Part shown: one piece after another, positions 26,879 to 37,574 of the stretch
How the letters are laid out: the number at the start of each line of letters is the position of its first letter
How positions within the stretch are numbered: the first letter of the stretch is position 1
Assembly: GCF_024349785.1 (NCBI RefSeq)
Contig: NZ_AP018817.1
Location: forward strand, 2,325,501 to 2,389,500
Length of the DNA stretch: 64,000 nucleotides
Origin: Sphingomonas bisphenolicum
Lineage (GTDB): Bacteria; Pseudomonadota; Alphaproteobacteria; Sphingomonadales; Sphingomonadaceae
Direction: 5' to 3'
Notes under the pieces: generated by a model
Databases searched by the model: none
Seen by the model: the letters and a program-made list of their open reading frames with translations, nothing else
What the model was told of the DNA's origin: nothing
Program-made: the position numbers and the translations under genes

Positions 26879-27883
26879 ATGGATGCTGCGCCCCCTAGCA
26901 TGGCTTTTGAGCCACGACAAACCTCCCTTGGTGGGAGGCTGGCGGCGTTGGCGCGTGTGCGGCTGGACCGGCTCGAACGCTGGCTGGAACGCGAGCGCGA
27001 ACAGATCGGATTATGGGTGCCGATCGCGCTGGGTGGCGGGATCGCCGCCTGGTTCATCCTGCCCCATGCCATGGCCTGGCTCGCCTTTTGCTGCGGCACG
27101 CTGGCGATGGCCTGTATCGGGGCGATGTTGCCGGTGGGCGGGCGGTTGCGGCGGATGATGGTCGGGGGTGCAATCCTGGCTTGCATGGGGTGCCTGCTGG
27201 TCTGGGGGAAGGCGATGCTGTGGGGCCAGCCGCCGCTTGTCCGGGCGACCTTCGTGCAACTGACGGGCGATGTTGCCGCGATCCGCCCCGTTCCGGCGCA
27301 GGCGATGGTGCGCGTCATGCTGCGCCCGGTCGACGCGCCCGATCTGCCGGCCGTCATACGGGTGAATATCGCCGACGCGGATGTGCCGGCGGGGCTGGGT
27401 GAGGGCGCGCGGCTACGCTTTCGCGTGCGCTTGATGCCGCCCGCGCCGCCGAGCGTTCCGGGCGGCTATGATTTTGCGGCGCGCGCCTATTTCCAGGGGA
27501 TCGGCGCGACGGGCAAGGCGCTGAAGCCGGTCGAGATAGTGATCCCATCCACTGCCTCGCCGCCGCTGCGGGCGCAGTTGTTCGGCCATATTTTGGAGCA
27601 AGTGGACGGTCCCGCCGAAGGGATCGCCGCCGCTCTTGCGACCGGGGACCAGGGCGCGATTCCCGAAGCCGATGCGGAGGCGATGCGGCGCAGCGGACTG
27701 GCGCATCTTCTGTCGATCAGCGGATTGCATGTGACGGCGCTGATCGGCGCGGTCATCTTCCTGCTGATGCGGGTGATGGCCCTGAGCCAGTGGGCGGCGC
27801 TGGGTTGGCCACTCATGTTGATCGCGGCGGCTGGCGGGGCGCTGGCCGGGATCGGCTATACGCTGCTGACCCGTGCGTTATAG
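26879..27883 (+). pseudogene. comEC: comEC, 5' fragment interrupted by an integrated element
   Basis: The first 331 codons of a ComEC/Rec2 DNA-uptake channel protein, followed by three foreign codons (R-A-L) and a TAG inside the attachment-site arm of the element. Present are the N-terminal helices, the DUF4131/OB-like part (residues about 110–220) and the start of the competence domain (GLAHLLSISGLHVTALIGA). The break comes directly after GYTLLT. In intact homologues this continues GAEVPTVRS, which is exactly how the 3' fragment at 35668 begins. Joining the parts at the shared TGACC restores one 720-codon frame. In its present state the channel should be non-functional. Confidence 0.95.
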
Positions 27884-27887
27884 GAGT
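27867..27887. other. attL: attachment site, left junction (attL)
   Basis: comEC sequence ends at the 5-base core TGACC (27867–27871), followed by CGTGC and the inverted arm GTTATAGGAGT. The core is identical to the one at the right junction. Relative to the dinucleotide AC at 27869–27870, six bases separate the crossover from the arm. Confidence 0.85.
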
Positions 27888-27937
27888 CAAACCCTGAATT
27901 GACCCCGGCCCGGCGCGCCCTGCCGGGGTAGCGTGGA

Positions 27938-28276
27938 TCAAGCAGCCTTGGGGATCGGCTCTTTGTTGGCCAGCTTGCCGTCTTTGAAATGCCAGACCTT
28001 CGCGTGGCTCCGAGCGCCGCGACCGGACAGTTCCAGCCAGTAGTTTTCATCAAGCGGCTCATCCTCGTCCACGGGAACGAGCAGGTAGATGAGGGTCAGT
28101 TTACCCTCGCCATGGCCCATCGAAAGAACCTGATGAATGTCGCTGCCGTCAGAGAGGTCTTCCATTTCCATGCCAAGGTCTTTGGCCACTTCCACGAACC
28201 CATTGAACGGGCCTTTCGGAGCATGAAGGTCGATGTGCGCGGCGAGCGCGGTGAAGGCTTCTTCCAGCTTGTCCAT
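27938..28276 (-). CDS. hypothetical protein of the SOS cassette (112 aa)
   Basis: An acidic 112-residue protein starting MDKLEEAFTALAAHIDLHAPKGP. I place the start at ATG 28276, preceded by AAAAGGATTCAGG; the longer frame upstream runs across the promoter region and SOS box and is unlikely to be coding. No signal peptide, membrane helix or recognisable motif. It is transcribed divergently from the 28397 gene, and a GAAC-N7-GAAC box lies 39 bases upstream of its start, so DNA-damage induction is likely. Function unknown. Confidence 0.7.
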   Translation of the reverse strand: MDKLEEAFTALAAHIDLHAPKGPFNGFVEVAKDLGMEMEDLSDGSDIHQVLSMGHGEGKLTLIYLLVPVDEDEPLDENYWLELSGRGARSHAKVWHFKDGKLANKEPIPKAA

Positions 28277-28314
28277 GACCTGAATCCTTTTCGAGTCGTC
28301 CTGATCGGCAATGA

Positions 28315-28329
28315 GAACAAAGAAGGAAC
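28315..28329. promoter_or_regulatory. LexA (SOS) box in the divergent promoter
   Basis: Perfect GAAC-N7-GAAC (spacer AAAGAAG), the alphaproteobacterial LexA operator (also written GTTC-N7-GTTC). It lies between the divergent genes at 28276 (-) and 28397 (+) and can repress both. The box upstream of the host lexA in this window has the same form. Confidence 0.88.
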
Positions 28330-28396
28330 AAATAGGCAAGGGGCTTGCGACAGAATGCTGGTGCGATAGGCTCACATCAGAACAGGGAGATCGGTG

Positions 28397-28759
28397 ATGC
28401 CAGCATTTTTCATTCCGTCGGTTGATCCTGACGATCTGGAAGCGGAATACGCTCGGCTGGCGCAGAAAGTGGACTCTGCGCCGCAGGCACATGACAAACG
28501 CATCTATTCGATTTCGTGGAAGCGCGAAGGTGCGGAATGGACTGCCACAGTCGGTGAACAACTTACGAGCCACGAATATGTGACAGTAGGAAAAGGCATC
28601 AACGCCTCACTGCGCGACAAGAGGGGAGGCACGAATGATACCGTGACGGCCATCTTTCCGGGCCCAACGTTCCTTGTCACACACGATGGCAAGAGCAAAG
28701 TGTGGAACTGGCCGATCCTGACAGGAGAGCCAACCCGCGTGGTCTATTTCGATGTGTAA
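28397..28759 (+). CDS. hypothetical protein upstream of SRAP (120 aa)
   Basis: A 120-residue soluble protein (MPAFFIPSVDPDDLEAEYAR at the start, ending PTRVVYFDV). ATG 28397 has a good ribosome-binding site (ACAGGGAGA) 8 bases upstream; an in-frame GTG directly before it is a weaker option. The last eight bases overlap the start of the SRAP gene, so the two are one operon behind the SOS box at 28315. I do not recognise a family. The central region (KREGAEWTATVGEQLTSHE) is beta-rich by eye. Confidence 0.72.
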   Translation: MPAFFIPSVDPDDLEAEYARLAQKVDSAPQAHDKRIYSISWKREGAEWTATVGEQLTSHEYVTVGKGINASLRDKRGGTNDTVTAIFPGPTFLVTHDGKSKVWNWPILTGEPTRVVYFDV

Positions 28760-29360
28760 TCACTATCGGAATAATCCCGACCTAATCCCGACATGGCGCG
28801 AATATGCGGGTTATGACCTTCGCCAGCCCAATCAGGAGTTCGCATCGGACGTTTACCCGAAGCGGGCAGGTATGATCGTCCGCAAGGATGACGGGGTGGT
28901 GAAGTCCGACGTTATGGCCTGGGGCGTTCCAACCATGGTCAAAGGCGCAACCAAGATGCTGGAGAAGCGCGTCACGAACGTCAGGAACCTCAGCAGTAAC
29001 TTCTGGAAGTCCATGCTGTCGAAGCCAGAGCAGCGATGCCTTGTGCCGTTCTCGACATTCGCAGAGCCGAAAGCAGGGCAGGGCCGCGAAGAGTGGTGGT
29101 TCACGATCAAGGATCAGCCCTTAGCGGCGTTCGCGGGCATCTGGCGGCAAAGCGAACATGGAGCGGTCTATGCCTTCCTGACCTGCGAACCGAATGAACT
29201 GGTCGCGCCACTCCACCCGAAAGCCATGCCGGTGATCCTCGATCCGTCGCAATATGAGGAATGGCTATCGACCGATTATGCGGGCGCTTGCGCGATGGCG
29301 CAGCCGTTTCCCACTGATCGGATGGCCGTCGAATTGAAAGAACATAAAAAGAACAAATGA
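28752..29360 (+). CDS. SOS response-associated peptidase (SRAP, YedK/HMCES family)
   Basis: A 202-residue SRAP protein. This family forms a stable thiazolidine cross-link with abasic sites in single-stranded DNA through the N-terminal cysteine. C2 becomes N-terminal after Met removal (MCNHYRNNPD). Other active-site residues are visible: N76 or N79 in RVTNVRNLSS, E105 in FSTFAEPK (the position equals E. coli YedK E105) and H155 in PLHPKAMPVIL. It overlaps the preceding small gene by eight bases and precedes umuDC. The SOS box for umuD lies over its own 3' end. Likely a damage-tolerance partner of the polymerase genes. Confidence 0.93.
   Translation: MCNHYRNNPDLIPTWREYAGYDLRQPNQEFASDVYPKRAGMIVRKDDGVVKSDVMAWGVPTMVKGATKMLEKRVTNVRNLSSNFWKSMLSKPEQRCLVPFSTFAEPKAGQGREEWWFTIKDQPLAAFAGIWRQSEHGAVYAFLTCEPNELVAPLHPKAMPVILDPSQYEEWLSTDYAGACAMAQPFPTDRMAVELKEHKKNK
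29340..29354. promoter_or_regulatory. LexA (SOS) box upstream of umuDC
   Basis: Perfect GAAC-N7-GAAC (spacer ATAAAAA), beginning inside the last codons of the SRAP gene and 62 bases before the umuD ATG. It gives umuDC its own SOS promoter in addition to read-through from the upstream operon. Confidence 0.87.
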
Positions 29361-29416
29361 CCGATGGGGTCGGTTAGGGCTATGCTGGGTCGGGTATCTG
29401 ATTCGTGGCTTAACCG

Positions 29417-29830
29417 ATGTTTGAACCCATACCTATTTGCCTATCCATGCCCGATTTGCCGTTGCTGCTGGTCAGCACTCCGGCTGGCTTTCCGTCGCCC
29501 GCTCAGGACGACATGGAAGAACCCATCAATCTGGCCGATTGGCTCGTTGAGCATCCGGCCGCCAGTTACATCATGCGGGTCGATGGTTATTCCATGACCG
29601 GCGCTGGCATCACTGATGGTGATCTCATCATCGTGAGCCGGGCCAAGAAGCCGGTTGCTGGTCATATCGTTGTCGCACTTGTCCATGGTGATCGGACGTT
29701 GAAGCGCCTGCGACGGCGCGAGGGCCGTCATTGGCTGGTGCCGGAAGCGGAGGGCTTTCCAGAAACGATAGTGGACGAGCATGTCGAGATATGGGGCGTG
29801 GTCGTCGGGCTGGCCCGCAAATACGTATGA
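29417..29830 (+). CDS. umuD: UmuD-like translesion polymerase subunit (self-cleaving)
   Basis: A 137-residue S24-family protein. On RecA* contact UmuD cleaves itself and the product associates with UmuC as DNA polymerase V. The cleavage bond is predicted at A23–G24 (STPAGFPSP), the catalytic serine at S59 (DGYSMTGAG) and the lysine at K96 (DRTLKRL), matching the E. coli positions C24–G25, S60 and K97 within one residue. The serine motif reads GYSM instead of the usual GDSM. The ATG at 29417 follows the SOS box by 62 bases; its stop overlaps the umuC start (ATGA). Confidence 0.94.
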
Positions 29831-31098
29831 GCGCCCCGGTCGCTCTGATCGACTGTAACAATTACTATGTGTCCTGCGAGCGAGCGTTCGACGCAAGCCT
29901 GTGCGGTGTGCCGGTCATTGTCCTGTCCAATAACGATGGCTGCGCGATTGCCCGGTCAGCAGAGGCCAAGGCTCTCGGCATCCGCATGGGTGAGCCGGTC
30001 CACCTGATCCGTGATAAAATCCAGAAGCACGGCATCCGGGTCATGTCTTCCAACTATGCGCTCTATGGGGACATTCAGCGCCGGGTGGTGGCGGCAATCG
30101 AACCCTTTGCCCGTGATTTCGAGATATACTCGATTGACGAAACGTTCGTGGACTTCGCAGGGTTTGAGCATCTGGATTTGGTGGCTCATTCCCGTGCGAT
30201 GCGCGAACAGGTCAAGCAATGGACGACGATCCCGACATGCGTAGGCATCGCGCCGACGAAGACGCTGGCCAAGCTGGCCAATGCTGCCGCGAAGAAGAAC
30301 CCGATCTTTGATGGCGTGGCCGATCTTCGCAGCGAAGAGATTCGCCGCTGGGTCTTGGACCAGTTTGAGGTCGGGGACGTGTGGGGGATCGGCAGAGCGA
30401 CGACAGAGAAGCTGGCCGCGCTCGAAATCAAGACGGCTGGCCAGCTTCGCGATATGGCATTGAAGCATTCACGCGGCGTCGGTGGTGTTGTGCTGGAAAG
30501 AGTTGTCGCTGAACTGCGCGGCGTTCCGTCCAGCGTGATCGAAACGATAGAGCCGCAACGGAAGGGCATGGCTGTCACCTGGTCATTCGGCTCCCCGATC
30601 ACCGACATAGACATGCTGATGGGGGCTGTGACGCAATATGCGATGAGGGCAGGGGAGAAGCTGCGCCAGCATGGCCTAGTGGCCGGTCGGCTGACGGTCT
30701 TCTTTCACACAAATCGACACAAGCAGGACCGGCCGCAATATAGCGCCACGCGGACGCTCAGCCTTCAACCGATGACCAATGATGGCCTGACCTTGCTGGC
30801 CTACGCCAGACGTGGGATCGAAAGCGCATGGCGCGAGGGGTATGGCATCACGAAAGCCGGTGTGATGCTGGAGGATTTGATGGAAGCTGACCGGCGACCG
30901 CGCACGCTGTTTGAAGAGGACAACGAGCGGCGCAGTCGGCTGATGGTGGCCATGGATGAGGTCAACGGTCGGTTCGGCAAATTCGCGATTGTCCCGGCCA
31001 GCCAAGGCTTCAAGCGCCAATGGAAGGCCCGGTCAGACGCAAAGTCGCCGAACTACACGACCCGGATTGCTGAGGTGCCAGCGGTTAAAGCGCGATAG
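29827..31098 (+). CDS. umuC: UmuC, DNA polymerase V catalytic subunit
   Basis: A 423-residue Y-family polymerase. The palm begins [18 protein letters not shown] with the first catalytic aspartate; the second acidic cluster is [12 protein letters not shown]. The little-finger region follows ([18 protein letters not shown]). The start ATG 29827 overlaps the umuD stop, as in standard umuDC operons. The last 14 bases overlap the 3' end of the convergent gene at 31085. Frame and motifs are intact, so it is expected to be active in error-prone bypass. Confidence 0.96.
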
Positions 31099-31726
31099 GG
31101 TCTTTCGGCAGGCTCACGCCGATGGATGCCAGAACGGCGTCTGCCGTCATCTGGGCCTTTTCGACGCCGGAGGGTGCCCATTCGAACATTCCGTCATGGC
31201 TCGTCACTACTGGTGGTGCGATATGGACGGCAGCAGCAGGTCCACCAGCGCAGAAGTAGTTGGGGTCCATGTTCTGGTAGAGGCGTTCGGTTTCCTTGAT
31301 TTTGGCGCGAGGAACGATCACCGCGCCATCAACCACAGCCTGCTGGCATGTCTCATCGACATGGATCAGATGCGTCATCGCGCAGTTGCCATCAGCAGCA
31401 TGGAAAACGTTCAACTCGGACATCAGCACTTTTGCCAGTCGGGCATACTGCTCTTTGTTCACGCGCTCGGTCAGCGGAAAAACGATGGTCGCCGTCCTCT
31501 CACCTTTGCGGCTCAGGCTGTCCATTAGGATATGCGCGTAGCCCAAGGCCGATGCCTTTTCGTGGAGCGTTTCGCCGATTTGGGCTAGATCCTTGCTGCG
31601 GTATTCCAGCACGATCGCGGTTGCGGCCAGCCAGTATTCTGAGGTGTTGTTCGTCGCCTTGAGGTTCTTCCATTCGCTGAACGACCATGCGGCTGGCTCA
31701 TTCGTGAAATTGGCCATCTGCTTCAT
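31085..31726 (-). CDS. hypothetical protein formerly coupled to the recombinase gene (213 aa)
   Basis: The frame can be read from 31792, but the bases above 31787 belong to the IS. The natural start is ATG 31726, overlapping the original recombinase stop as TGATG, so in the ancestral element it was translationally coupled to the recombinase. The product contains [20 protein letters not shown] and [15 protein letters not shown], which distantly recall the N-terminal part of phage or plasmid primase-polymerases; this is a weak impression. No Walker or zinc motif is visible. The IS insertion has cut it from its upstream promoter. Confidence 0.6.
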
Positions 31727-31791
31727 CAGGCCATCCATGTAACCCTGAATGCCGGGGCAGTTCTCTTCGCCAGTGATTTTCCAACATGTCA

Positions 31792-31837
31792 ATCGGCGTG
31801 CAAACGGGACCCCCTATCGGCGCGCAAAAGGGACCCC
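31792..31837 (+). repeat. IS left-end transposase-binding repeats
   Basis: Two 22-base near-identical units (31792–31813 and 31816–31837), each of the form ATCGGCG(T/C)GCAAA followed by (C/A)GGGACCCC. They mirror two units at the right end (34245–34266 and 34279–34300, opposite strand). Multiple terminal repeats of this kind are typical of IS21-family transposase binding. Between them and istB (31838–31963) no gene is seen. Confidence 0.8.
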
Positions 31838-31963
31838 ATTTCAAGATGGCGCAAGGTTGATCTGACGCGCTCTCCTGCGCTGCGCGCGGCGTAGGGAGGG
31901 CGTAGCCCGACCGAAGGCGCGCGCAGCGCAAAGCATCTTTTAATTGAGGGCCGATGGGGAGGA

Positions 31964-32692
31964 TCAGCTCCGGTTTTTGAAGCGCCAGCTGTCATTGCCG
32001 GTCTCGACTATGTCGCAATGATGGGTGACGCGATCCAGGAGCGCGGTGGTCATCTTGGGATCACCGAACACGGTGGGCCACTCCCCGAAGGCGAGGTTGG
32101 TGGTGATGATGACACTGGTTTGCTCGTAGAGCTTGCTGATCAGATGGAACAGCAACTGGCCGCCCGATCGGGCGAACGGCAGATACCCCAGTTCATCGAG
32201 CACGATGAGATCGAGGCGGGATAGCTGGGCGGCGAGTGTGCCGCTTTTGCCGATCCTGGCCTCCTCTTCGAGACGGGTCACAAGATCAACGGTGTTGAAG
32301 TAGCGGCCCCGCGCACCCGAGCGCACGACATTAGCGGTGATGGCGATGGCCAGATGGGTCTTTCCGGTGCCTGTACCGCCGACCAGGACGATATTGCGCC
32401 GCGCGGGCAGGAACGCGCCGCTGTGCAATGAACGCACCAGTCCTTCGTTGATCGGGGTGCCCTCGAACCGGAAGGCGTCGATGTCCTTCACGATCGGCAG
32501 CCTCGCGGCCGCCATCCGGTATCGGATCGACGCGGCGTGGCGATGCGTCGCTTCCGCCCTCAGAAGATCGGTCAATATCTCCATCGTGGTGCGCTGGCGC
32601 TGAAGGCCGGTGGTGACCGCATCGTCGAACGCGCCTGCCATGCCTTTGAGCCCGAGCCCGCGCATGGCCTCGATCATGTCATGCCGCTGCAT
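31964..32692 (-). CDS. istB: IS21-family helper ATPase IstB
   Basis: A 242-residue DnaC/DnaA-like AAA+ ATPase that acts with IstA in transposition and target selection. Walker A is [12 protein letters not shown] and Walker [13 protein letters not shown]; the sensor region [27 protein letters not shown] is typical of IstB. Its start overlaps the istA stop by 14 bases, the usual coupled arrangement. Intact. Confidence 0.97.
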
Positions 32693-34193
32693 CGAAGGTC
32701 CTCAGCTGGTCGTAACGGGCACAGTCGGCGATCGGAGGATGGCGCAGCGCGCTGTCCTCGGAGGTGATGATCGTGAGTGGACGCGGCGGTTCCCGGCGTC
32801 GCGCCAGGATGTTCAGGATCAGGTCGTCGCTTGCCGTGCCCGTCGCCAGTGCCTCGCGCACCGCCGCTTCGACAGGCTCCAGGCCATCGGTCAACACAGC
32901 CGACAGCACACGGACGAACCGGCGATCAGCATCGTCGCCATTACCCAGCTTGCGGCGCAGGCGGGCAAGCGCCGGTGGCAGATCCCAGCCCTGGAAGGGG
33001 GCGCCGTTCCGCAGCGCGCCGGGCTTGCGGGCCAGCACCGGCAGATAATGCCAGGGATCATAGATCGTGCGGTTGCGCCCGAAGTAGCGAGGATGTTCGG
33101 CGACAACCTCCTCGCCGCAGCGAACGACGATACGATCGGCATAGGCGCGGACCTGCACAGTGCGCCGTGCCACCGTCGAGAGCACCGAGTAACGGTTGCG
33201 GTCGAAGCTGATCAGGCAGGTGCCCGTCACGGCATGCTCGCTCTCATTGAAGCCGTCGAACGGCCCCAGCATCGGCTGCAGCGCGGATCGTTCGATCTCC
33301 AGCACCTGCGCCACGGTCAGCTCTCCCTGTTCGGGATGGGCCTGCCGTTCCGCCCAGCGCCGACACTCGGCCTCCAGCCAGCCATTAAGCTCTTCGAGGC
33401 TGGCGAACCGCAGCCGGGGCTGGAAGAAGCGGCCACGGATCGTCTGCACCTGGTTCTCGACCTGGCCCTTCTCCCATCCCGCCGCAGGCGAGCAGGCCGT
33501 GGGCTCGACCATATAATGGTCGGTCATGATCAGGAACCGCCGGTTGAAGACTCGTTCCTTGCCGGTGAACACGCTCGTCACCGCCGTCTTCATATTATCG
33601 TAGATGCCGCGCTCCGGCACGCCGCCAAAGAAGGCAAAGCCGCGCGCATGCGCGTCGAACAGCATCTCCTGGCTCTCGCGAGGATAGGCTCGGACATAGA
33701 CCCCGCGTGACGCGCACAGTCGCATATGCGCGACCTTCACCCGCATCGGCTTGCCGGCGATCTCGACATCCTCATGGCTCCAGTCGAACTGGTAGGCCTC
33801 GCCTGGCCTGAACATCAACGGGATAAAGGCGGTGACGCCATCGCCGGCATCCTTGCGCCGTTCGATCTTCCATCGCGCCGCGTAGCGCCGCACGGCATCG
33901 TAGGAACCCTCAAAGCCTTCGCGCACCAGCAGGTCATGGATCCGCGTCATCCGCAGCCGTTCACGCCTGCCGCGCACCTCGTTCTCTTCCAGCAGCGTGT
34001 TCAGACGATCCTGAAACGGACCGATCCTGGGCAGTGGCTGAATCTTGCGCTGATAGTCGAATGCGCCCTCCGGCGCTCGGATCGCCTTACGGATGACCTT
34101 CCGCGACACATGCAGATCCCGCGCGATCGCCTTGATCGCCTTGCCCCCGGCATACTCGCGCCGGATCCGAACAACTGTCTCCAAAACCAACAT
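32679..34193 (-). CDS. istA: IS21-family transposase IstA
   Basis: A 504-residue DDE transposase. The N-terminal helix-turn-helix is [21 protein letters not shown]. The catalytic core has [12 protein letters not shown] (first D), [10 protein letters not shown] (second D region) and [14 protein letters not shown] (E). The C-terminal beta-barrel follows. No frameshift or stop is seen, so the element looks capable of transposition. Confidence 0.97.
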
Positions 34194-34244
34194 CCCGATC
34201 TCGCCGCCTGAAAATCCAGGCAGCTGTTTAAACCATCGAAATGA

Positions 34245-34300
34245 GGGGTCCCTTTTAGACGCCGATCACCCCGCTAACGGGGTCCTTTTTGCACGCCGAT
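34245..34300 (-). repeat. IS right-end transposase-binding repeats
   Basis: Two 22-base units on the minus strand (34300–34279 and 34266–34245) matching the left-end units in inverted orientation. The outer unit also supplies the new C-terminal codons of the recombinase. Confidence 0.8.
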
Positions 34301-35609
34301 CCACATCCTCGATGAACCGTTGGCGGTCGGCAATGTCGATCCGAAGCGCCTCATTGCGGCTATCGGCAGCAACGTCCTTGCGGATCACAACGAACTTCAA
34401 AGCGACATTCAACAGCGCCTTTTCCAGCGTCTCGTATCTGACCCAGCTTCGGTTTGAGCAGCGAGGCACCTGTCGATCTTCATCCCATACCTTGTTCAAG
34501 GCATTGTGGCATTTGAGGTAGCTGAAAGTCTGGCCTGCTGGATAGCGGCCGCTTTTATGGTTCCTCATCTGCCCTTTGCGAACAGTCACTTCCTGCTTCA
34601 TCCGACCACCGCAATGGGCGCATTTCGCGATGCCGCTCAAAACATTGTTGTGGGTTATCTGCCAAGCGCCGCTGGCTCCCTTACGGGATTGTCGTGCAGC
34701 ATGGGCCTTCGCGAACATCACAGGGTCTATGGCTTGGGGAAAGTGGTTGAGAACCGCTATGCCCTTGCTGGTTTCCTTTCCGCTGCGAGGGCGGTTCATC
34801 GGGTGATATTCACCCATAACCGCACGGTTCAGGACCAGCTTAGTGAGATAGCCGACTGTCCAGCCATTGTTGCTTTGCCGATCTAAGTGGTTCCAGACTG
34901 GTTCCCCGCGACCATTGAGCATCTTCGCTATCGCTGGTGTTCCGTAGCCGTCGATTGTCCACTGGAAAATCTCTCTTAGGACTTCGACGCGTTGATCGTT
35001 CAAGGTCATCTGATAGCGGGGTCGGTCGCTCGGCTTGCTAACACGCTCAACGTCGATCCATCCTGGCACTGTCCTAGTGTGGCTGACGTGCTGGCCAACT
35101 GCGGCACTCTCCTGAGCGGCCTTGATCCGATCATTCTGAGCAGCTTTCAGGCGCTTGCTTTTGTTCTCGCTTTCCTGACGCGCAAGCTCTGCTGCGACGA
35201 CCGCCTCGATGACGGCACCGAGTTCGACACGTTCATATGCTTTGTAGATGCGGCGTGTGGCAGCAACAGCGACAGTAACACCGGCTTGGGTCATCTTTTT
35301 GACCCAAGGCAGCACCTCGTCATGCCCTTGCCGACTAATGCGGTCGATATGCTCGACTACGAGGACATGGCCGTTTCGATATTGGCCAGCTTCGACCTCT
35401 TGCTCAAACTGGTGGAGCAAACCACCGGCAGCGCGATTCGCCCCACTAAATGCGGAAAGCCCCTGATCTATGAGAACCCTGTCTTCGGTGAGCTGCCATT
35501 TCTCATCGGCAATCATGTCGCGACAGAGTTTTAACTGACGGGCTTTACTGCTTCCGCGTGCCTGCTCCTGATTTGAAAAGCGGGCGTAAATTGTAGCTGG
35601 TAACGTCAT
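34266..35609 (-). CDS. large serine recombinase of the comEC element, C-terminus replaced by IS sequence
   Basis: A 447-residue serine recombinase. The N-terminal resolvase domain has the nucleophile S12 in IYARFSNQEQARGSS and the family arginines in HIDRISRQGHDEV; a recombinase domain and a zinc-ribbon (CAHCGGRMK at about residue 330, later cysteines in YLKCHN and VPRCSNR) follow. The last 11 residues come from the IS end. Before insertion the frame would have run V436-GKSLAKRTAPAFRVTWMA-stop, i.e. 454 residues, ending at 31726. The loss is small and after the zinc-ribbon domain, so activity may persist. It lies at the element's right end, starting 58 bases from the crossover. Confidence 0.93.
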   Translation of the reverse strand: MTLPATIYARFSNQEQARGSSKARQLKLCRDMIADEKWQLTEDRVLIDQGLSAFSGANRAAGGLLHQFEQEVEAGQYRNGHVLVVEHIDRISRQGHDEVLPWVKKMTQAGVTVAVAATRRIYKAYERVELGAVIEAVVAAELARQESENKSKRLKAAQNDRIKAAQESAAVGQHVSHTRTVPGWIDVERVSKPSDRPRYQMTLNDQRVEVLREIFQWTIDGYGTPAIAKMLNGRGEPVWNHLDRQSNNGWTVGYLTKLVLNRAVMGEYHPMNRPRSGKETSKGIAVLNHFPQAIDPVMFAKAHAARQSRKGASGAWQITHNNVLSGIAKCAHCGGRMKQEVTVRKGQMRNHKSGRYPAGQTFSYLKCHNALNKVWDEDRQVPRCSNRSWVRYETLEKALLNVALKFVVIRKDVAADSRNEALRIDIADRQRFIEDVDRRAKRTPLAG

Positions 35610-35647
35610 CTTCCCCCTGTGCCCCGGCCGGGCCTAAAAAGTTCCTA

Positions 35648-35667
35648 ACTCCTATAACAGTATGACC
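35648..35667. other. attR: attachment site, right junction (attR)
   Basis: The arm ACTCCTATAAC (35648–35658) is followed by AGTA and the core TGACC (35663–35667), after which comEC resumes. Six bases separate this arm from the dinucleotide AC at 35665–35666, the same distance as on the left, so the rejoined attP would be a symmetric 11-6-2-6-11 site, as serine recombinases use. Confidence 0.85.
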
Positions 35668-36837
35668 GGGGCGGAGGTGCCGACGGTGCGGTCCTGCGTC
35701 GCCGCCCTGCTGGTGCTGGGCGGGCTGGCCATGGGGCGGGACGCGGTGACCTTGCGTCTGGTGGCGACCGGCGCGCTGGTGGTGTTATTTCTGTGGCCCG
35801 AAGCACTGGTCGGGCCGAGCTTTCAGATGAGCTTCGCAGCTGTGACGGCGCTGGTGGCGCTGGCCGAGCATCCCCGTTTCCGAACCTTTGCCGCCGCGCG
35901 AGACGAGGGTGCGTTTCGTCGGATTGCACGCGGCCTGGCGGTTACGCTGGCGACTGGCATCGCTGTCGAACTGGTGCTGATGCCGATCGCGCTGTTCCAT
36001 TTTCACAAGGCGGGGCTGCTCGGCGCCTTCGCCAATCTGATCGCGATTCCGCTCACCACCTTCGTCGTCATGCCGCTGGAGGCGCTGGCGCTCGTGCTGG
36101 ATGTCGCGGGCTTGGGCGCGCCTTTCTGGTGGTTGACGCAGCAGGCGCTGAACCTGTTGCTGTTACTGGCCCATGGCGTGGCGGCCAGTCCGATGGCGAC
36201 ATTGCTGGCGCCGACGATGGGCATGGGGCTATTCGGTATCACGGTCGTCGGGCTGCTCTGGTGCCTGTTGTGGCGGACGGGGTGGCGATGGCTGGGACTT
36301 GCGCCGGTGCTGATCGGCGTGGCGGTCACCTTTACCGCCGCGCCGCCCGATATCCTGATTACCGGCGACGGGCGGCATGTCGCCGTGCGGACGGGAAAGG
36401 GCATGGCGATATTGCGCGATCGGGCGGGGGATTATGTGCGGGACGTGCTGTCGGAAAGTGCAGGTTATGACGGCGAACTGGCGGCGATCGCGGATTTGCC
36501 GGACGCACGCTGTTCGCGCGATCTGTGCGCTGTCGGCGTGAAGGACGGCAATGGCCGTAGCTGGCGGCTGCTCTTCACCCGCAGCACAGTGCTGATCGAA
36601 CGGTCCGACTTCGCCCGCGATTGCGCCGCGGCGGACATCGTCGTCAGCGATCGGGGGCTACCGCGCTGGTGCCATCCGCGCTGGATGAAGATCGACCGCC
36701 GGTTGCTGGCACGGACCGGCGGCCTGTCCATCACCCTGGCGAAGGGCGAAGTTCACACCGTCCATCGAGTCGGCGACGCACATCCCTGGATCGTTCGCCC
36801 ACCCCGTGGATCAGGACGACCCAAATCTCAATTATAG
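35662..36837 (+). pseudogene. comEC: comEC, 3' fragment
   Basis: The remaining 389 codons of comEC from GAEVPTVRSCVAALLVLGG (base 35668 on): the rest of the competence channel domain with its helices and a C-terminal remnant of the metallo-beta-lactamase-like domain (DILITGDGRHVAVRTGKG, ending PKSQL). The frame is intact. An ATG at 35662 created by the element end (M-T-G-A-E) could allow separate translation, but no good ribosome-binding site precedes it. It converges with lexA, overlapping by ten bases. Confidence 0.94.
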
Positions 36838-37505
36838 CGGCGCAGCAGCCCTGCCAGCTTGCCCTGGATGCGGACCTGCCGCGGGTCGTAAATCTGCGGT
36901 TCATAAGCGGAATTGGCCGGATCGAGCCGGACGCGGCTGCCTTCGCGGCGGAAATATTTGAGCGTGGCTTCCGCTTCGTCGATCAACGCCACGACGATCT
37001 GGCCTTCGCGCGCGACGTCGGTGCGCTGGATCAGGGCGAAGTCACCGTCGAGAATGCCCGCCTCCATCATCGAATCGCCCGACACTTCCAGCGCATAATG
37101 GTCGCCCGCACCCAACAGCGCGGCCGGCACGGAGAGCATGGTCTGCCCCTCCATCGCCTCGATCGGCACGCCGGCCGCGATCCGGCCGTGCATCGGGATT
37201 TCGATCACGTCATTGGCGGCGATCGGAACAGGCGCCGCGACCTTGGGTTTGAGCGCAACGACTGGCGCGGGCACCGGCGCACGATGCATCGCGTCGGGCA
37301 GCTTCAGCACTTCCAGCGCACGGGCGCGATTGGGCAGGCGGCGGATGAACCCGCGCTCCTCCAGGGCATTGATAAGCCGGTGGATGCCGGACTTGGACCG
37401 CAGGTCCAGCGCGTCCTTCATTTCCTCGAACGAGGGCGAAACGCCGCCTTCGTCCAATCGGGTCTGAATGAAGCTCAGCAATTCCTGCTGCTTGGGCGTC
37501 AACAT
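36828..37505 (-). CDS. lexA: LexA repressor
   Basis: A 225-residue SOS repressor and self-cleaving protease. The N-terminal winged helix begins [21 protein letters not shown]. The cleavage bond is A111–G112 ([11 protein letters not shown]), the catalytic serine S145 (SGDSMMEAG) and the lysine K183 (EATLKYF). I start at ATG 37505; the longer in-frame option would read through its own operator. The SOS box at 37520–37534 indicates autoregulation. It lies downstream of moeA and convergent with comEC. Confidence 0.97.
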
Positions 37506-37519
37506 CGCGGTCCTCCGTG

Positions 37520-37534
37520 GAACGTATGAGGAAC
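37520..37534. promoter_or_regulatory. LexA (SOS) box upstream of lexA
   Basis: Perfect GAAC-N7-GAAC (spacer GTATGAG), 14 bases upstream of the lexA start codon. It serves as the internal reference showing that the host LexA recognises the same motif carried twice by the comEC element. Confidence 0.88.
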
Positions 37535-37574
37535 GCATAGGAAACAGATGAAGGTTAGTCAAGCACCGAACATG

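Follow-up and report, generated by a model that had tools for sequence, protein, structure and literature searches.

A probable prophage remnant in comEC of Sphingomonas bisphenolicum and cassette arrays, likely moved by a phage serine integrase, at the same codon in related sphingomonads

What has split comEC, a DNA-uptake gene, in Sphingomonas bisphenolicum, and does the inserted element belong to something larger? The locus lies in the stretch of 64,000 nucleotides analysed here (the window; assembly GCF_024349785.1, contig NZ_AP018817.1, positions 2,325,501 to 2,389,500 of the forward strand), in which comEC is interrupted by an element carrying the gene of a large serine recombinase, here called the integrase. 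Genome comparison makes it probable that this element belongs to a family of comEC-specific prophages, of which the window holds a remnant, and that in relatives the phage integrase moves gene cassettes, likely with the phage itself as shuttle.

The interruption can be read directly from the sequence. The gene halts after codon 331 (ACC, 27869-27871) at TGACC and resumes in frame past a second TGACC, the two copies lying at 27867-27871 and 35663-35667, and a stop ends the frame of the first part at 27883. The 5.2-Mb assembly of this genome (G000) contains a single comEC, in these two pieces. The pieces and their junctions are as follows.

26879..27871, forward strand: N-terminal part of comEC (comEC-N; codons 1-331), matching PF03772 profile positions 1-72 and DUF4131.
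27849..27887, forward strand: left junction (B.P'), with the comEC half, the crossover AC at 27869-27870 and the arm GTTATAGGAGT at 27877-27887.
35648..35687, forward strand: right junction (P.B'), with the arm ACTCCTATAAC at 35648-35658, the crossover AC at 35665-35666 and the comEC half.
35665..36837, forward strand: C-terminal part of comEC (comEC-C), in frame with the N-terminal part.

The two arms, GTTATAGGAGT and ACTCCTATAAC, are perfectly reverse-complementary and stand at the same distance of six bases from AC, and the rejoined attP of the element is a symmetric 36-mer. An initial annotation of the window had described both the split frame and a 36-base attP with inverted 11-base arms, and the sequence bears it out on each point. 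Its proposal that strands are exchanged at AC can be examined across the family. Among nine integrase-bearing elements (those of the window, G249-G255 and G763) whose B, P', P and B' half-sites were aligned, AC is the only dinucleotide common to all four halves in 9 of 9, in agreement with that proposal. The base to its left is unequal between B and P in G249, G251 and G252, and the base to its right between P' and B' in G250 and G252; because neighbouring bases on both sides thus differ between halves in some elements, the exchange falls on AC. The same two arms, with at most one substitution each, surround AC in all nine, so the symmetry of attP is not a chance feature. At up to three mismatches, the 24-base left-end pattern occurs in one of 397 family genomes, the window's own. 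The exact pattern matched three viral contigs: L073, discussed below; L074, which is identical to part of the element of Sphingomonas sp. Leaf34; and L072, which looks like a chance match.

The target is equally constant. An integrase scan of 84,980 named species genomes returned at least seven relatives at 66-79% identity, namely Sphingobium sp. 66-54 (a metagenome assembly), Stakelama pacifica DSM 25059, Sphingomonas sp. Ag1, an uncultured Sphingomonas (G252) and Sphingomonas spp. Leaf242 (G253), PP-CE-1A-559 (G254) and Leaf34 (G255). In all seven, comEC is in two pieces, the N piece ends at profile position 72, which is the same codon, and comEC-C starts about 55 bases from the integrase start. 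Intact comEC, which the annotation's account presupposes in related genomes, is indeed common. In the window's genus comEC was found in 92 of 94 genomes, and 87 of those 92 give a single match; the split at codon 331 is present in four (the window's, 66-54, G763 and G761), while in G723 comEC is broken elsewhere and the insertion site is unoccupied. In the genus of Leaf34, 286 of 295 genomes have a comEC match, including weak, partial single matches in G579 and G629, and 12 have two matches. Seven of these 12, namely G540 and six named relatives, are split at codon 331. The remaining five comprise three with a break at a different profile position (G472, G584 and G615), G643, where a weak second match accompanies a full one, and G595, in which contig ends cut comEC on both sides of the site. 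These are counts of matches, the coordinates of many single matches not being listed. An unbroken comEC is thus the normal state, and the split has come about by insertion.

The elements that occupy this codon are of prophage size in several relatives. The comEC halves lie 49.9 kb apart in PP-CE-1A-559, 48.7 kb in Leaf34, 46.4 kb in G763 and 4.3 kb in Stakelama pacifica. Among 44 proteins of the PP-CE-1A-559 element are portal, terminase, major head, tape-measure and tail family matches, and tail and tail-fibre families were matched among 18 proteins from the comEC-N sides of the Ag1 and 66-54 elements. The integrase itself found no match in a scan of viral contigs, only integrases below 60% identity in phage and plasmid records, and no match by sequence among solved structures. 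In 249 family genomes it was matched in 35, the best match outside the window's own genome being 47% identical and beside comM. Two smaller occupants of the site were also seen. The 4.3-kb element of Stakelama pacifica (L070), with an open integrase of 590 residues and few other genes, is a natural short form. In G761 (L109, C2 near 1838300), the comEC codon is occupied by a unit of about 0.67 kb that has a single open reading frame (ORF) of 158 residues; the integrases of that genome are distant (35% identity and less) and lie at other loci.

Between its two junctions, the window element contains the following features.

27938..28573, reverse strand: hypothetical left-end gene, with a 49% homologue at the left end of the comEC prophage contig L073.
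28394..28759, forward strand: hypothetical protein of 121 residues, with a 47% homologue in the comEC element of Sphingomonas sp. Leaf242.
28752..29360, forward strand: SRAP (SOS response associated peptidase), with an 87% identical homologue in L073.
29417..29830, forward strand: UmuD-like S24 peptidase, by domain match.
29821..31098, forward strand: UmuC-like Y-family polymerase (IMS, IMS_C, DUF4113).
31085..31786, reverse strand: hypothetical gene, its 5' end cut by an insertion sequence (IS); the comEC element of Sphingomonas sp. Ag1 has a 37% homologue, and that of Stakelama pacifica one of 61% over 57 residues.
31787..34305, reverse strand: IS21-family element with TGT...ACA ends, istB at 31964-32692 and istA at 32679-34193.
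34306..35609, reverse strand: large serine recombinase (integrase), truncated after residue 435 of about 589, by domains and alignment.

At window 34266-35609, the integrase retains the domains PF00239 (Resolvase), PF07508 (Recombinase) and PF13408 (zinc ribbon). It is 81% identical to the 589-residue integrase of G763 up to residue 435, exactly where the IS begins, and the last 154 of the 589 residues are gone; open frames of 592-601 residues occur in relatives. No target duplication was seen flanking the IS21 element of the window, and an IS without duplicated flanks suggests that the interior was probably lost in an IS-linked deletion. We infer that the element is immobile by its own enzyme and that comEC stays broken. 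The initial annotation had allowed that comEC may be regained upon excision, which is unlikely because the integrase lacks its C-terminal quarter. The small size of the element is best read as loss, given relatives of 46-50 kb, phage genes in them, and left-end genes shared with L073. This predicted viral contig contains comEC-N, the same left end and both homologues listed above, and a later stretch of it is shared with the Ag1 element. Phage structural families were absent from the 10 window proteins tested.

These observations bear on the annotation's own view, that of a small autonomous serine-recombinase element with SOS cargo toggling comEC. The SRAP, UmuD-like and UmuC-like genes are present, as that view has it, and Stakelama pacifica demonstrates that short forms with an open integrase occur. 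The same view has to accommodate an integrase truncated by IS21, the much larger relatives at the same site, one of them (G254) with phage structural genes, and left-end genes in common with a viral contig. Its cargo is not general either: no UmuC or UmuD match (E<=1e-4) was obtained in the other comEC elements searched, several of which are incomplete and which do not include G763, and in the same search L073 (87%) and Sphingomonas sp. Ag1 (35%) alone gave a match to SRAP. As far as this search reaches, the idea that SOS cargo is conserved was rejected, and SRAP, at least, is best read as a prophage left-end gene. We consider the autonomous, toggling element quite improbable. Of the annotation's description, the large serine recombinase and its site-specific insertion in comEC stand; the free-standing character is not supported, and the element is probably the remnant of a comEC-specific prophage. 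In relatives, UmuD matches past comEC-C were discarded as element cargo, as they look like a neighbouring gene that we take to be lexA. In the window, the gene immediately 3' of comEC (36828-37562) adjoins an element carrying SOS-type genes; it looks like lexA, and its counterpart in relatives matched the UmuD query.

In four of the nine integrase-bearing elements, the comEC-N side holds more than a prophage left end, namely a tandem array of units of 0.5-1.8 kb. Left-end copies, counted with a profile that was built from these sites and leans towards comEC junctions, number five in PP-CE-1A-559 (the last decayed), five in Leaf242, four in Leaf34 and three in the uncultured Sphingomonas; the window, G249, G250, G251 and G763 each have a single clear copy. 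Between the copies lie 13 units of 524-1839 bp, with at most four cassettes per array. The arrays thus described rest on four genomes and one solo cassette, with 10 kinds of unit. Most units have one main ORF, on either strand, and the first unit of G252 has two. Their products include a VOC protein, a DUF7946/7947 protein, a trypsin-like protein, an HNH nuclease related to type IV restriction enzymes, a cupin-like secreted protein (so named from our own reading of the sequence; Pfam gave no cupin match) and unknowns. The integrase adjoins comEC-C in 4 of 4 arrays, in G252 and G253 on a different contig from the array. Six comM-type elements (G044, G095, G114, G189, G229 and G242) were examined for repeats of their junction at up to six mismatches in 24 bases, and none had any, so that, at this sensitivity, these integrases do not generally come with arrays.

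The clearest indication that units move comes from the VOC unit. It is 99.1-99.7% identical in G253, G254, G255 and G540, which are four species, and its right neighbour differs in all four genomes. In the first three it is leftmost in the array, and the adjoining comEC-N is 85-89% identical among them. G540 has comEC-N, the VOC unit and comEC-C with nothing else, the edges lying at AC, and no integrase relative was found in that genome at E<=1e-3. Compared with the other three, its comEC-N is 65-67% and its comEC-C 70-73% identical, against 99.3-99.6% for the VOC unit. The full 706-bp unit is present in 4 of 295 genomes. The HNH unit likewise occurs in two arrays, 85% identical over its full length and with different left neighbours. 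As far as sequence comparison can tell, vertical descent and homologous recombination do not give the VOC-unit pattern, and we infer that the VOC and other units move as cassettes.

The left boundary of each unit is the P' arm of the element (a B.P' junction) followed by a further stretch alike in many units. The right end resembles B, the comEC half of attB, in 8 of the 10 kinds, these ends falling in the top 0.7% of 14,540 background sites; the background consists of sites ending in AC and includes the scored sites themselves, and three of the eight ends (G253c4, G255c2 and G255c3) are near copies of one another. The VOC body (positions about 56-660 of the unit) matches VOC genes elsewhere in the 295 genomes at up to 92%; Leaf34 itself has a 91% paralogue, and a plasmid copy is 82% identical. 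For the cupin-like unit, relatives of 66-78% were found over the middle part. Because the body alone matches genes elsewhere, the VOC cassette is an ordinary bacterial gene between fixed ends. By eye, six Sphingomonas loci (L140-L145) carry a VOC gene unit of about 600 bp with flanks that all differ, as if it were mobile alone, and the match there begins and ends at or near GAATGTCC-type repeats; as a guess, such repeats may play a role in joining genes into cassettes. At G508:C1 near 3244296 (L156), a decayed B.P'-like site with a cassette left end lies outside comEC, and the comEC match of that genome is in one piece.

Could the units instead be decay products, with successive comEC elements each leaving a left end, cut at a pseudo-attB, and no further movement of cassettes? 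Every unit does start with the element's left end, and cassette G253c3 is most similar (75%) to the first left-end gene of a prophage in dprA of G475. Decay by itself does not account for a VOC unit that is 99% identical, and has its edges exactly at AC, where the comEC flanks are 65-73% identical, and the VOC body, more weakly the cupin-like body, matches ordinary genes elsewhere in genomes. We regard this explanation as unlikely.

The phage-shuttle reading, which we prefer, would operate as follows. A prophage to the right of cassettes would excise by attL x attR from its own Bc.P' site (Bc being the B-like cassette end), leaving the cassettes behind as B.P'[gene]Bc.B'. It could also excise from the outermost B.P' and carry the cassettes along. 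Where a solo cassette offers a hybrid Bc.B', a phage would use it as attB for integration (attP x attB) and thereby pick the cassette up. All these steps would be the two standard reactions of large serine integrases, and decay of inner sites would be permitted. The shuttle model predicts an integrase always to the right of cassettes, as seen in 4 of 4 arrays, and solo cassettes without an integrase, as in G540.

A closely related possibility dispenses with the phage carrier, the integrase inserting and excising cassette circles (Bc.P') directly, in the manner of an integron. The solo VOC cassette in a genome where no integrase relative was found would fit, and the leftmost position of the VOC unit in three arrays resembles insertion of the newest cassette at comEC-N. 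So does the distribution of mismatches to the 13-base arm. Counted from comEC-N onward, they are 0, 1, 2 in G252; 0, 0, 0, 2, 2 in G253; 0, 0, 2, 1 in G254, followed by a site too decayed to match; and 0, 1, 0, 0 in G255, so that they rise outward in three of four arrays. However, such a route would have to recombine attL-type with attB sites or attL with attL, pairings that serine integrases as a rule disfavour. Insertion of circles by attL x attR would place cassettes to the right of the integrase, a position seen in 0 of 4 arrays, and the shuttle yields the observed order with standard reactions. Direct handling of free cassettes is thus possible but doubtful. A wider form of the same idea deserves similar caution: the comEC integrase may be a serine-integrase counterpart of the integron, handling free cassettes through B.P'-type sites, with ordinary genes (VOC, probably cupin-like) joined between fixed ends of about 55 bp on the left and about 45 bp on the right.

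The arrays resemble integrons in several respects. Both have tandem, mostly single-gene cassettes with end sites at one chromosomal point, both share cassettes between species in differing neighbourhoods, and in both a cassette may persist without a recombinase. A classical integron with a tyrosine IntI and attC sites sitting in comEC is nevertheless hardly credible. Its tandem units of 0.5-1.8 kb with conserved end sites would be matched here, but comEC is joined at AC instead of G^TT, neither boundary of the solo cassette in G540 shows the attC core GTTRRRY, the left end is identical to the arm of a serine-integrase attP, and ORFs run in both orientations. We rejected this reading on the AC junctions and the missing attC core; no search for IntI was made. 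The comEC arrays further differ from integrons in that a serine and not a tyrosine recombinase is involved, the sites are of B.P' type with an AC crossover, and the array, with at most four cassettes, lies in comEC beside a phage integrase.

Several observations weigh against the prophage-and-shuttle reading. All of the evidence for it is comparative; several elements are split between contigs, the comEC halves being on separate contigs in four of the seven relatives (G249, G251, G252 and G253), and the completeness of the G540 assembly is not given. The window element itself has just one site within it in the array search and no cassette. The growth of arm mismatches away from comEC-N in G252, G253 and G254, absent in G255, is one such point, and the profile score behaves irregularly, falling outward in G253 and G254, being mixed in G255 and rising in G252. 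Two right ends are only weakly B-like (G253c3, background fraction 0.10; G254c2, 0.05), two are not AC (G253c3, AT; G254c3, AG), and the ten kinds do not include G254c4, the second copy of the HNH unit, whose end is decayed (17 bits). Since the closest relative of G253c3 is a gene inside the dprA prophage of G475, capture from the chromosome need not be the source of all cassettes; that gene does not belong to a cassette array. Finally, the right end of the G761 unit is not B-like (0.25) and more P-like (top 1.1%), which makes that unit a probable internally deleted, or possibly a miniature, element.

Related integrases occupy other transformation genes. Searches with the integrase gave 64 loci, examined with about 1.5 kb on each side, of which 25 have pieces of comM (two of the matches short), 7 comEC and 2 dprA; these shares are not unbiased because resemblance to the comEC integrase was the basis on which loci were selected, and six of the 64 had no match to the integrase used as query in a later comparison. 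The comM-adjacent loci include L004, L006-L014, L085 and L091-L095, and both comM halves were found for six elements of 5-22 kb, which occupy two different positions in that gene. The comEC integrases form a single clade (100/100) in a tree of 50 integrases, where the comM label changes at least five times, a provisional count since eight loci labelled 'other' were later found at comM. The dprA-adjacent serine integrases, 36-38% identical to the comEC type, are at G475:C3 (L157, L158) and G610:C78 (L081), and dprA of G475 is split by an insertion of about 43.6 kb (C3, about 412.8-456.4 kb). The presence of related integrases beside comM and dprA is consistent with the idea that blocked transformation benefits the element.

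Comparable systems share parts of this arrangement. The staphylococcal cassette chromosome (SCC) elements are tandem serine-recombinase elements at one site, some members of which have no recombinase. The Dehalococcoides ssrA genomic islands, with the CcrB-like DsiB, are likewise described, in the portions of the report consulted, as tandem at one site, some without a recombinase, and perhaps moving with neighbours (PMC3146451). The comEC arrays resemble both as tandem att-bounded units at one site, some without a recombinase. They differ in that those systems are islands at rlmH or ssrA, whereas here mostly single genes of 0.5-1.8 kb lie in comEC with a prophage as the likely carrier. Interruption of a transformation gene is familiar from the Listeria prophage in comK, where regulated, precise excision restores the host gene; such active lysogeny is unlikely for the window copy, whose integrase is truncated. 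Extracts of two further reports describe site-specific insertions in the pneumococcal genes comYC and ssbB and comM elements (PMC12637031, PMC4774983). Site-specific interruption of a transformation gene is common to all of these; here the target is comEC and the enzyme a serine integrase, and those extracts mention no cassette array. The Variovorax prophage VAI-C_pp_2 is, according to the sections consulted, of siphovirus type and lies inside comEC/Rec2 (PMC9658991); the integrase listed for it is of the tyrosine family, and its core site is not the one seen here. In Piscirickettsia, comEC is interrupted by transposable elements, as stated in an excerpt of PMC12955456. Within the extracts of openly licensed literature that were searched, no paper was found that joins comEC with a serine-integrase prophage or that links cassette arrays to serine integrases.

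If this reading of the arrays is right, the collection of genes cassette by cassette is not confined to the tyrosine-integrase integrons, and a phage large serine integrase would support it through two ordinary reactions. The arrays also bear on how cassettes are made, a question that is open for integrons, because close relatives of one cassette's gene are known and its joins can be read. In addition, the naturally varying half-sites of a single serine integrase that they contain are of use for work on its site choice. Were the integron counterpart true, cells would collect cassettes at the price of a DNA-uptake gene. With related sphingomonad serine integrases at comEC, comM and dprA, the idea of elements that switch off transformation becomes testable within this family.

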